A DNA stretch of 64,000 bases, from contig JALFZG010000062.1 in the NCBI GenBank assembly GCA_022784645.1, positions 1 through 64,000 on the forward strand. Reading direction: 5' to 3'. The DNA comes from Bacteroidales bacterium. GTDB lineage: Bacteria > Bacteroidota > Bacteroidia > Bacteroidales > Paludibacteraceae. Under the pieces are notes generated by a model, which saw only the letters and a list, made by a program, of their open reading frames with translations, was not told the DNA's origin and searched no databases. Below, piece by piece: positions 1,434 through 34,256 of the stretch (position 1 is its first letter; every line of letters begins with the position of its first letter). The position numbers were made by a program, and so were the translations under genes.

Positions 1434-1470
1434 AAAAAAGCGCTCCTTGTCATCACGACAGGGAGCGCTC
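1434..1470 (-). terminator. Intrinsic terminator of the sus-like operon
   Basis: Read on the minus strand, a 12-bp stem (1440-1451 with 1457-1468, one G-U pair, loop of five) is followed by a run of T at 1434-1439. It lies about 120 bp after the esterase stop codon, the last gene of the operon. Confidence 0.85.
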
Positions 1471-1588: not shown

Positions 1589-3766
1589 CTACATTCGTTG
1601 CCCAAGAGCATTATAAAAACAACCGTTTTTCTCAATAATCAGCATTCCATTCTTCATTCGTTTTTGGGTAGAAACAGAATGGGTATTGCTAATGGATGTT
1701 TCGGCTGGACGGGTAATAATCTTCATGTTTACATTATCTATACCGAAAGATGGTGCTGAGGCGCAGTTGTCGCCAGATGAAACAGAGATCATCCAGCAAA
1801 GAAACAAATCCTTTCCAGCAGCCAAATTGCACGGCATACTACCACTAATAGTGGTCGTTTGAGCCGGAACAACGGCATAACCGGCCGTTGCAGATTCGGC
1901 CGCGTATAGCATCTTGAAATCATCACCTGCGCTGTTCCACACATAACCATTATTACTCCAATAGAGTTGGATAGTAAACCCCGCAGCATTGCTGCCTGAA
2001 CGGTATTTCTCGATATCGTACATCAGCTCAATGCCTACTATATCTTGAGCTGATTTGTTTTCTATATGTGCCATGAGATTGATGGTTCTCGTACCATTTG
2101 CAACGCCGGTAGTCATACCACCGATGGCTCGATCGGTAGAACCCGTAGCCCCAAGATTCCAAATACCATTGTAAGCATTGGAAGCCAAACTCTGACCACC
2201 GATATAGGTAGCAGTATCTACAGCCGCAGCATAACTACCAATCGTTCGTGGACCGGTTGTGTTGCGCTCTATTCGCCATCCTTCCGGAAGGATAGACCCT
2301 CTCTTTATACCCGTCTTGGCATCCTGAGAGGGGTCAACATCATCCCCTCCGAGGCTATCAAAATCCTGAAAATAAGTAGTGTCGGTTTCAGTGAAGACAA
2401 TAGCCGGAAAATCAACAGTCTGCGTAATGGCTTCTCCAGCATTTACAAGTGACTTATACACCACTCCATCATACATTGCTTCTACTTGATACGTTCCTGC
2501 GTTGAGAGCAGTGAGAATGCTATCGGTCATGGAGCCATTATCAGCAGAATAAGAGGCAGCCGTAAGCACTCCGGCGCTCATCCCATTCGTATCCAGTTGA
2601 TGAAGCGAAAAACGAATGGTATGTGCATGATTATCCACTACCTGCTCAAAATGCTGCCACGCATACGAAGCATACCCACGTATGACAGCGGCATCGGCAG
2701 CCGGCAAAGTACTTGGAGCCCAAGTGATGGTGATGGGATCAACGCCAAAAATCGTAGCATATTCCAAGCAGCAAGCGGCATACGTAGCTTTAGTGGTAGG
2801 ATGACGATCGTCTTTATACCATGTAGAGAGAATAGTAGCATCTTGCTCTGAGGCGTATTGATAACATGGCCCTACGGGACATAGCACCACGCCCAACTCT
2901 TGCGCCACTTGAAGATAATTCTGCAAGAAGATTTGGTTAAATTCAGCAAACGGATCGGTGTTATACGCCCAATTGATAGGAAGAATAATCACTACATTCG
3001 GATTGGGGCAATTTTCTCTGATATATTTCACCCAATCACAAACAGACTGACGAAAACCAGCGAAGTTCGTACGCGGTTTAGCAGTCTGCTCTTGGAGAAT
3101 GATATGCGTCCATGCTTCCGTTCGTACCAACATTCGCGCAGAAGGGGTGCCGGCATCGGTGAGTCCTTCGCCCTCATCATAGTGATATTGGAGCGATTTG
3201 CCCAAATTGGTATGGGCAGTCCATTGTGCCGTTTTGCCCATGGCCAGCGCCATCTGATTGAAGATATCATCTTGCCATTCTTGCTCATAATGAATCAGCG
3301 AGTTGTTCATAGAGAGCACTTTTATTTCCTCCGGTTGGCTAGTGAGCAACGTGGCACTTTGCGGCCAAAGGGCAATGCCGGCCAACTCAATAGGTGCATC
3401 TGGCGCTTTCTCGATTAGCACCGAGGGAATAGCAGGATTAAACGTTATCTTTTTACAGATTGTTGTTTCAGCCACAGTCAGATTGCTATTCGAACCCGAT
3501 ACGAGGGTGTAAGCCACTCCAGGGGTAACGAGCCCGCCATCGGCCGCCGCGCCGTAATTGCAAGCCGCTGACCAATTAGCATCGGCAATCTTAAATTGCC
3601 CCGTAAGGGTATAATTCTCTATGGTGTAAGTACCATCAGATTGTAGGGTCATTTCGTCAGCGGGAGCCGCCCCCCAACTGTTGTGTGCACCGCGTACAAA
3701 CACGCCTTGAGCCACTGCACCCAATGCAGACAGCAACCATGCACAAATAAATAATAGTTTCTTCAT
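1589..3766 (-). CDS. Secreted SGNH/GDSL-type esterase with starch-module-like N-terminus and sorting tail
   Basis: The protein has 725 residues with a signal peptide ending near residue 20 (LGAVAQ). Residues 21-118 resemble the beta-sandwich repeats of SusE/SusF-type binding proteins (GVFVRGAHNSWG at the start). Residues 148-345 look like a DUF4886-type SGNH hydrolase: Ser156 in LSMNNSL, HTNLG near 185, QEQ at 225-227, and Asp319 or Asp320 with His322 in DDRHPT. A second beta-rich region covers roughly 465-690. The last 25 residues (LIIEKNGCFYNALGQRM) resemble tails used for type IX secretion or surface attachment. It is the last gene of the starch-type operon, so removal of ester groups from the glucan or a co-occurring glycan is a reasonable inference; the substrate is not known. 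Confidence 0.75.
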   Translation of the reverse strand: MKKLLFICAWLLSALGAVAQGVFVRGAHNSWGAAPADEMTLQSDGTYTIENYTLTGQFKIADANWSAACNYGAAADGGLVTPGVAYTLVSGSNSNLTVAETTICKKITFNPAIPSVLIEKAPDAPIELAGIALWPQSATLLTSQPEEIKVLSMNNSLIHYEQEWQDDIFNQMALAMGKTAQWTAHTNLGKSLQYHYDEGEGLTDAGTPSARMLVRTEAWTHIILQEQTAKPRTNFAGFRQSVCDWVKYIRENCPNPNVVIILPINWAYNTDPFAEFNQIFLQNYLQVAQELGVVLCPVGPCYQYASEQDATILSTWYKDDRHPTTKATYAACCLEYATIFGVDPITITWAPSTLPAADAAVIRGYASYAWQHFEQVVDNHAHTIRFSLHQLDTNGMSAGVLTAASYSADNGSMTDSILTALNAGTYQVEAMYDGVVYKSLVNAGEAITQTVDFPAIVFTETDTTYFQDFDSLGGDDVDPSQDAKTGIKRGSILPEGWRIERNTTGPRTIGSYAAAVDTATYIGGQSLASNAYNGIWNLGATGSTDRAIGGMTTGVANGTRTINLMAHIENKSAQDIVGIELMYDIEKYRSGSNAAGFTIQLYWSNNGYVWNSAGDDFKMLYAAESATAGYAVVPAQTTTISGSMPCNLAAGKDLFLCWMISVSSGDNCASAPSFGIDNVNMKIITRPAETSISNTHSVSTQKRMKNGMLIIEKNGCFYNALGQRM

Positions 3767-26870: not shown

Positions 26871-26901
26871 TTTGGTATATCAAAAAAAAGCAGTACCTTT
26901 G
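26871..26901 (+). promoter_or_regulatory. Promoter of small RNA candidate A
   Basis: TTTG at 26871-26874 and TACCTTTG at 26894-26901, with 19 bp between, a strong match. Transcription should begin near 26907. Confidence 0.8.
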
Positions 26902-26905
26902 CATC

Positions 26906-26978
26906 GTCCTAATAAAGGACTGAATTAATAGTGTTAGTAGTAAGGAATATCCGTCGAGATGACGGGTATTCTTTTTTT
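26906..26978 (+). ncRNA. Small RNA candidate A (about 72 nt, own promoter and terminator)
   Basis: The predicted RNA opens with hairpin GUCCU-AAUAA-AGGAC (26906-26920), continues through a single-stranded stretch with GUGUUAGUAGUAAGG, and ends with an 11-bp terminator stem (26945-26955 with 26961-26971, loop GAGAU) and seven U. The loop and its closing GUC/GAC are the same as in candidate B at 30.3 kb. It may be a free small RNA, or an attenuated leader of the NadR-like gene that starts 80 bp further on. Confidence 0.6.
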
Positions 26979-27056: not shown

Positions 27057-27998
27057 ATGAAAATCGGAATCTGCATTGGTTTGCGCCAAGAGCTTCTTCG
27101 CGGTGATATGGATTTAATAATGCAAGCCAAGAAGCAATGCGACTGCTGCATTGTAGCGTCTGAGCAAGAGCAGTTGCATCACCTGAAGAAACTACTCGGA
27201 TATGACCCTATTATACGATTCGTGTCGATAGCAGAGAATGCCAATTCTCTAACGGCTGCTTCCATTGCATTCATTGAGCAGACCGCCAAACAAATTTCAG
27301 AAGAGGCTACTTTAGTGTGGTACATACGGCCAGAATGGGTAAGTCTGCTGGAAGGAAAAACGGTGATTATCGGTGGTGAGGATATGACTCCGTTTAATAG
27401 AGTAGCGGAAAAACGAAGTTGTTGTCACCGCATATTGATTACGGGTTGGGCATCAGAAGGCAAAACAACGCTTGCCCGCGATCTTGCTACCTATTTCCAA
27501 ATTCCATATATTCCAGAAGCCGCACGCGTATATATGGAGGAACATAGGTTGAAAGACGAAGAACTTACCGAAGAAGATTTTTTGGCGTTTATCCGGTTGC
27601 AAAACGAGTTGACCGATGCCACTCACGATAGCGTAATAATATCAGATACCGATAATATCACAACCTTAGCCTATACTATTTCATATGCTAGCGACCCTAG
27701 CGTAAGGGCTATTTCTGCCGATTCAATCGAAAAAATCAAACGAGAAATGCAGATATATGATTGGAAGAAAATCTATGTACTGCCACCCAAGAATACGTAT
27801 GTGAATGATGGCTTGCGGTATATGAAGCAAGCCGATTTGGAGGTGCGTAACAAAAATTTCAACTTGCTGATTCAACTGATAGAGTCGTATGGATTCCGAG
27901 ATAAAATTACCTACCTAAGAGGTGATTTTTGGGAAAACTTCGTAAGTGTAAAGCAGGATATTCTGCAGCATTTGAGCAACAACGAAGCAAACTATTAA
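27057..27998 (+). CDS. NadR-like protein: degenerate nucleotidyltransferase domain plus P-loop kinase domain
   Basis: 313 residues. Residues 123-300 form a NadR-type AAA kinase: Walker A GWASEGKTT (130-138), PEAARVYME, and DTDNITTLAY, as in ribosylnicotinamide kinases. Residues 1-110 align in style with an NMN adenylyltransferase (MDLIMQAKKQCDCCIVAS), but the expected GxFxPxHxGH motif reads GICIGLRQELLRGD, lacking both His. Adenylyl transfer is therefore probably lost and the kinase retained. Start at 27057 follows candidate RNA A; the gene is convergent with the lysozyme gene, 26 bp between stop codons. Confidence 0.82.
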   Translation: MKIGICIGLRQELLRGDMDLIMQAKKQCDCCIVASEQEQLHHLKKLLGYDPIIRFVSIAENANSLTAASIAFIEQTAKQISEEATLVWYIRPEWVSLLEGKTVIIGGEDMTPFNRVAEKRSCCHRILITGWASEGKTTLARDLATYFQIPYIPEAARVYMEEHRLKDEELTEEDFLAFIRLQNELTDATHDSVIISDTDNITTLAYTISYASDPSVRAISADSIEKIKREMQIYDWKKIYVLPPKNTYVNDGLRYMKQADLEVRNKNFNLLIQLIESYGFRDKITYLRGDFWENFVSVKQDILQHLSNNEANY

Positions 27999-30234: not shown

Positions 30235-30255
30235 CAAAAAAAATCCGAAATATGC

Positions 30256-30326
30256 AAAAAAAAAGAAAGGATGTCATCTCGACATCCCAATCTTTACTTA
30301 ACCTTAAATCTAATACCATGAAAAAC
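30256..30326 (-). ncRNA. Small RNA candidate B (about 70 nt), paralogous to candidate A
   Basis: Its own promoter lies at 30333-30364. The RNA runs through an unstructured AU-rich part (UUAGAUUUAAGGUUAAGUAAAG) into the terminator stem GGAUGUC-GAGAU-GACAUCC (30269-30287) and a U-rich tail. The stem-loop shares the core GUCGAGAUGAC with candidate A, and both begin after TTTGCATCGT. It sits immediately upstream of the hydrolase promoter on the same strand. Confidence 0.6.
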
Positions 30327-30332
30327 ACGATG

Positions 30333-30364
30333 CAAAATTACTGCTTTTCTGCAATACCACCAAA
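30333..30364 (-). promoter_or_regulatory. Promoter of small RNA candidate B
   Basis: TTTG (30361-30364) and TAATTTTG (30333-30340) on the minus strand with a 20-bp spacer. Confidence 0.8.
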
Positions 30365-33908: not shown

Positions 33909-33950
33909 CAACAATCCCGCAGCTTCACAGCTTGCGGGATTGTTGCATGT
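33909..33950. terminator. Long hairpin after the barrel gene
   Basis: CAACAATCCCGC at 33909-33920 and GCGGGATTGTTG at the other arm, with an inner AGCT/AGCT pair and a TCAC loop, make a stem of about 16 bp. The plus-strand side is followed by CATGTACG rather than a T-run, so termination is plausible but not textbook. Confidence 0.55.
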
Positions 33951-33959
33951 ACGATATGT

Positions 33960-34068
33960 ACAAGTAGTTAGTAGTAATTTGTAGTAATGTCTTTCGACAA
34001 TTCTAATAGTGTGTAGTAGTAAAGAATCAGTAGTAGTAATATCTTATTTCTAAGACGCTGCAAAATTA
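33960..34068 (-). ncRNA. Possible minus-strand RNA with repeated UUACUAC motifs
   Basis: A -7 box TAATTTTG (34061-34068, no clear -33) would transcribe leftwards through UUACUACUACUG, UUACUACUACAC, UUACUACAAA and UUACUACUAAC, then reach the hairpin at 33909-33950. The last motif is the exact complement of GUUAGUAGUAA in small RNA candidate A. No protein frame fits. Existence of this RNA is speculative. The rest of 33874-34278 holds only the hairpins and AT-rich DNA. Confidence 0.3.
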
Positions 34069-34214
34069 CTGCTTTTTCGCGAAGTATAAGTCCTATAGAA
34101 ACAATTCTTATTCTTTTTCGCGCAAATGGATGGCAGTTTGTTTTGGAATTTTATTATATTTTTTGCGAAATATAAACAGATTTCTTGTAAAAACGTAAAT
34201 AGATTGTGGAAATA

Positions 34215-34256
34215 TGTTAAAAAACCGCCCAATCGGGATGATTCGGCGGTTTTTGA
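34215..34256 (-). terminator. Terminator of the CoA transferase gene
   Basis: AAAACCGCC (34221-34229) pairs with GGCGGTTTT (34245-34253); on the minus strand the stem is followed by TTTTTTAA. Confidence 0.85.

Follow-up and report, generated by a model that had tools for sequence, protein, structure and literature searches.

The locus examined here, a 64,000-nt stretch of DNA from a member of the Bacteroidales (the window, below), raises the question of whether two short intergenic elements, A and B, are diverged copies of one small RNA (sRNA) or separate RNAs, and what each of them would pair with. The first-pass annotation described A (positions 26906 to 26978, forward strand) and B (30256 to 30326, reverse strand) as paralogs with a common scaffold and different seeds. 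Both elements are indeed found at these places, are about 70 nt each, and very probably represent small-RNA genes; the ends of B are better placed at 30255 and 30328. Each is preceded by a Bacteroidota-type promoter (TTTG ... TAnnTTTG), with TTTGCATCGT directly before the RNA start, and each ends in a terminator with the apex GTCGAGATGAC. The promoter of A (26871 to 26901, forward strand) consists of TTTG at 26871-26874 and TACCTTTG at 26894-26901 and is 93% identical to that of its orthologue in another genome (G256, locus L079); that of B, as read in the sequence, includes TTTG and TAATTTTG (30333 to 30364, reverse strand). A folds far better than its shuffled versions (z = -4.7), and the fold of B is less marked (z = -1.6). 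Further copies with the same promoter-RNA-terminator layout are found for both A and B, each of which forms a multicopy family.

Element B is a member of the Rfam family RF04319 (BTncRNA_FopS), with a score of 78.9 bits against the gathering cut-off of 56, and lies in the same place in L079. The source genome has five FopS copies over the cut-off. The first-pass annotation also placed this hairpin in other intergenic regions of Bacteroidales; this fits FopS, the family of B, members of which occur in 136 of 150 genomes from the same taxonomic family. The 5' end of B is identical to positions 1-31 of the RF04319 consensus and unpaired in the predicted fold, with the segment from 30308 to 30328 (reverse strand) matching the published seed R1' (PMC11697453). 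That paper places the FopS seed at the conserved 5' end and describes repression of susC-like mRNAs by FopS in B. thetaiotaomicron, antagonised by RbpB. This does not agree with the earlier view of the middle part of B as its seed. The hairpin predicted at 30268 to 30288 (reverse strand), with its apex at 30273-30283, is the terminator. B is an ordinary FopS sRNA whose 5' seed would pair with translation start regions. A search of the sampled genome sequence with the FopS seed, allowing up to 3 mismatches, matched only the FopS genes themselves, and a simple motif scan of the sampled stretches, which cover part of the genome, recognised no RRM protein.

Assignment of A to the same family was rejected: it scores 16.3 bits against the cut-off of 56, has no R1' seed, and starts with a hairpin, GUCCU...AGGAC. 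Common descent of A and B followed by divergence of their seeds would account for the shared promoter type, the shared TTTGCATCGT, and the terminator apex GUCGAGAUGAC, but it is highly improbable, as the two RNAs have nothing in common between promoter and terminator, the score of A in the FopS model is about 16 bits, and the 5' hairpin of A, which shows covariation, is absent from FopS. The shared apex also ends an mRNA. The window contains three copies of GTCGNGATGAC, where 0.11 would be expected, and the third (1449-1459, reverse strand, GTCGTGATGAC) belongs to the terminator behind a gene that codes for protein (ORF 1589-3766), detected by a hairpin scan at 1438 to 1472 on the reverse strand. 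Apices of the CG-NGA-TG type are present in 4 of the approximately 13 best T-tailed hairpins of the window. Copies of the promoter stretch of A are found across the genus, including before tRNA genes. Because such apices also end protein-coding transcripts and the promoter type is common, the "shared scaffold" is generic, and a scaffold specific to A and B was rejected. In the 2.29-Mb genome, GTCGAGATGAC has exactly 4 occurrences, in A and three FopS copies; genus-wide, GTCGNGATGAC is about twice as frequent as the reversed control, and most of the sampled non-FopS matches look coding. In this genome, a shared terminator apex is no evidence of sRNA kinship. A and B are unrelated small RNAs, the former in a previously unlisted family and the latter known; in place of a diverged seed on a common scaffold, A has its own likely seed, the unpaired core UAGUGUUAGUAG.

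Two further elements carry the same apex. A hairpin between convergent genes (window positions 34220-34254) has the CG-NGA-TG apex and could terminate transcription in both directions. In congeners, a third sRNA-like element consists of a promoter, ACCAATCTTTTTTGTACCTTAAATAAACAGACTAATACC, and then a terminator with the GTCGNGATGAC apex (L013, 1501-1660; L027, 1501-1640; L040, 1501-1650; L106, around 1500); it has no convincing match in Rfam.

The A family has no match in an Rfam search. A second copy in the source genome (contig C6) was found by BLAST with the promoter and body of A and is 81% identical over 70 bases. The copy in L079, located through a search with the neighbouring nadR-like protein, has 71 of 73 bases identical and the same gene order. 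Identity is 97% inside the RNA and 59% and 55% in the upstream and downstream flanks, respectively; this pattern and the covariance-model matches in three species support the gene. Among 300 genomes, matches above 40 bits are found only in the source genome (G000, 2 copies), G256 (2 copies), and G332 (5 copies), with one further copy in G332 at 29 bits; a minority of the weaker matches (27-38 bits) were inspected. A promoter-plus-core pattern identifies clear members in the same three among 358 genomes of the taxonomic family, the other matches being judged by the matched string only. About ten members are thus known, from three congeneric species, at least one of which is represented by a metagenome-assembled genome.

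At its 5' end, A contains the hairpin GUCCU-AAUAA-AGGAC (26906 to 26920), all five pairs of which are changed on both sides among the ten members. This is followed by the unpaired UAGUGUUAGUAG (26929 to 26940), the proposed seed, identical in 9 of the 10 members and interrupted only by a two-base insertion in the copy on contig C57 of G332. The terminator stem-loop (26942 to 26974, apex GUCGAGAUGAC at 26953-26963) has a covarying stem. In the alignment of the ten members, which was fitted to the structure, 15 of 18 pairs are changed on both sides, and 94.9% of the cells are paired, compared with 42-58% for slid partners; most of the 5' hairpins are also recovered when the members are folded independently. 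An intrinsic terminator and a promoter of its own accompany every clear copy, with the C57 copy having no visible promoter. On sequence criteria, the A family is a previously unlisted, clade-restricted, multicopy sRNA family distinct from FopS. Transcription of A would start at a promoter of its own and stop at the intrinsic terminator, and the small 5' hairpin would cap the RNA. This leaves exposed the core UUAAUAGUGUUAGUAG, which most likely base-pairs in trans.

A role in cis would make A a 5' leader or attenuator of the nadR-like gene at 27057-27998, which starts 79 nt downstream on the same strand, an arrangement also seen in G256; the second A copy likewise lies upstream of a gene that shares its strand. 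This role is very doubtful, since the genes that adjoin A-family members are unrelated and vary in relative orientation, and neither position nor strand relative to any one kind of downstream gene is conserved in the family. The G332 copy beside a nadR-like gene lies on the opposite strand, and the nadR-like gene is present in none of the 60 congeners examined. Its product (window 27057-27998) is an AAA_28 protein that scores below the NadR cut-off; given this score and the absence from 60 congeners, it is probably an accessory gene.

A scan for clustered short complements of the A core detected a putative partner RNA at about 33909 to 34057 on the reverse strand, 7 kb from A. It is preceded by the promoter box TAATTTTG (34061 to 34068, reverse strand), which lies in a stretch (34058-34090) identical in G256, and contains a 5' hairpin, UCUUAGAAAUAAGA, several complementary sites, and a terminator-like hairpin in the predicted fold (33909 to 33945, reverse strand). 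The main site, UUUACUACUACACACUAUUA (34004 to 34023, reverse strand), differs from the perfect complement by at most 3 edits, with a predicted duplex energy of -18.9 to -20.3 kcal/mol; the second, UUACUACUAACUACU (33963 to 33977, reverse strand), is predicted to pair with A at -15.4 kcal/mol. The partner RNA is 97% identical in G256, in the same place, and upstream of its promoter, the segment 34091-34215 is 94% identical to G256, which is unusually conserved for non-coding DNA. G332 encodes three relatives of the partner RNA on its contig C90, in a stretch syntenic with the window; one lies near an acetyl-CoA hydrolase gene, as in the window, and another near mreB, where A lies in the window. 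Neither the partner RNA nor its G332 relatives have a match in an Rfam search. These RNAs carry from four to about twelve complementary sites each, which are mostly unpaired in the prediction (0.68-0.88, compared with 0.35-0.58 elsewhere). The presence of several predicted accessible sites for the A core is consistent with a sponge or decoy.

Duplex energy alone is not decisive: for 12 of 30 shuffled cores, the window offers a site as good as the best single site of the real core, which is not significant, and edit distance was therefore used as the test. The 20-nt core complement, with up to 3 edits, has 10 non-self matches in a 1.44-Mb sample, two stretches of which were included because of the targets, whereas each of 40 shuffled patterns had between 0 and 5. 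Of the ten matches, nine fall in the multi-site RNAs or in the leader of one gene, on contig C90 of the source genome; the remaining one is a G332 site with a promoter on one side and an ATG on the other. One of the G332 sites is a perfect complement but for a single inserted base. Cluster counts of 7-mers were not clearly better than those of shuffled patterns, and in a weak control, 370 kb of other loci, matches were seen only in loci selected for the core itself.

The ACUACUA/ACACUAUUA repeats of the partner RNA and of the leader might instead bind a protein, making the partner RNA a CsrB-like decoy to which the A family would be unrelated or a competitor. Many short unpaired repeats between hairpins do resemble protein-titrating RNAs, but this interpretation is rather unlikely: the agreement of the longer sites with the complement of the A core extends over 17-20 nt, beyond what a short protein-binding motif needs, and the distribution of the close matches, 9 of 10 in the multi-site RNAs or the C90 leader, also speaks against it.

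The C90 leader belongs to a gene for a 219-aa exported protein. In the whole source genome, CTACTAACACTA with at most 1 mismatch matches only the antisense of the two A copies and this leader, which was thus selected by the same search that found it. The pattern is rare there, with 3 places versus 22 for the reversed pattern, and this rarity may be explained by codon and stop-codon composition. The leader has three sites, with predicted energies of -18.3, -15.6, and -12.3 kcal/mol, the last of which ends at most a few bases away from the AUG. When the selected middle site is set aside, the pairing of the upstream and downstream parts still exceeds that of 98% of their shuffles (of 2000 each, 15 and 21, respectively, were as good). 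All three sites are kept in the leader of the G256 orthologue (protein 81% identical), where the substitutions in the middle site give G-U pairs; in G256, however, conservation extends over the entire leader and the entire partner RNA, so that conservation of the sites there is not independent. A ranking of G256 start regions missed this leader, probably because another ORF start had been called, and it was then measured directly. No orthologue of the gene was seen in the sampled ~35% of G332.

Other candidate leaders were noticed in the two related genomes. On contig C10 of G332 (L214, about 300-620), a promoter is followed by GAATATTC and then ACTACTGACTAACACTCTTAATG, upstream of a gene for a secreted protein whose Por-secretion tail is weak; this stretch is possibly a second target leader. 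In G256, a leader with TACTAACACTATT lies upstream of a gene MAYKYETRIDNEDG (L188, 12640-12891) and might be a further target.

The reading we favour, at a probability of about one half, is that the A family is a multicopy sRNA that pairs with the leaders of surface-protein mRNAs and is titrated by a multi-site decoy, with B being an ordinary FopS. The core of A would pair with the leaders of mRNAs for exported or surface proteins, blocking translation initiation, and the separately transcribed partner RNA (window 34057-33909) would titrate the A-family sRNAs. What the computation shows is the anatomy of these RNAs, their copy number, covariation, and conservation, and the complementarity. The roles could also be reversed, the partner RNA being either the active regulator or a transcript of the leader type, with the A family as the decoy that controls it. 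Complementarity is symmetric and does not set the direction of control, which, like transcription, pairing in the cell, and repression, we infer. Such a reversal is quite unlikely, however, as A RNAs have one site each and partner RNAs many, which is how regulators and decoys are usually built, and a leader with the same sites exists. The broader proposal, of an RNA circuit with three components in an uncultured clade of Bacteroidales, in which the core of the multicopy, single-site sRNAs would read both one or more dedicated multi-site decoys and the leaders of genes for exported surface proteins, is more tentative and falls somewhat short of even odds. In such a circuit, the number of decoy sites would evolve per species (from about 4 to 12), and leaders would carry up to three. 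Few trans-acting sRNAs have been characterised in Bacteroidota, and if the circuit is real, this phylum possesses networks of sRNA, decoy, and target that are made up of multicopy RNAs. With the sequences in hand, gel shift and reporter assays could test it directly. No dedicated sRNA decoy was noticed in the parts consulted of two papers on B. thetaiotaomicron (PMC11697453 and PMC7366714).

Among the known systems, FopS (RF04319; PMC11697453) agrees with B, a member of that family, in its five copies, conserved 5' seed, and one terminator hairpin. Features common to FopS and the A family are the multiple copies, the length of about 70 nt, and the putative promoters of their own; the A family differs by the lack of the FopS seed, the extra covarying 5' hairpin, an unrelated core, and its presence in three species only. 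GibS (RF04182), as described in PMC7366714, likewise combines a single-stranded pairing region with a Rho-independent terminator and acts in trans at translation starts; however, A has no match in the Rfam search, and B scores 40 bits against a cut-off of 115 for GibS. Multicopy sRNA families include LhrC of Listeria and Qrr of Vibrio, as cited in PMC11697453. These share with the A family several near-redundant copies and one exposed core but come from other phyla and have other sequences, and for A a dedicated multi-site partner RNA is proposed. Bacterial sRNA sponges, such as SroC and AgvB, are separate RNAs with sites that pair with an sRNA seed. The partner RNA is similar to these in being a separate RNA with sites complementary to the seed of an sRNA, whereas its 4-12 degenerate putative sites and its own predicted promoter and terminator set it apart.
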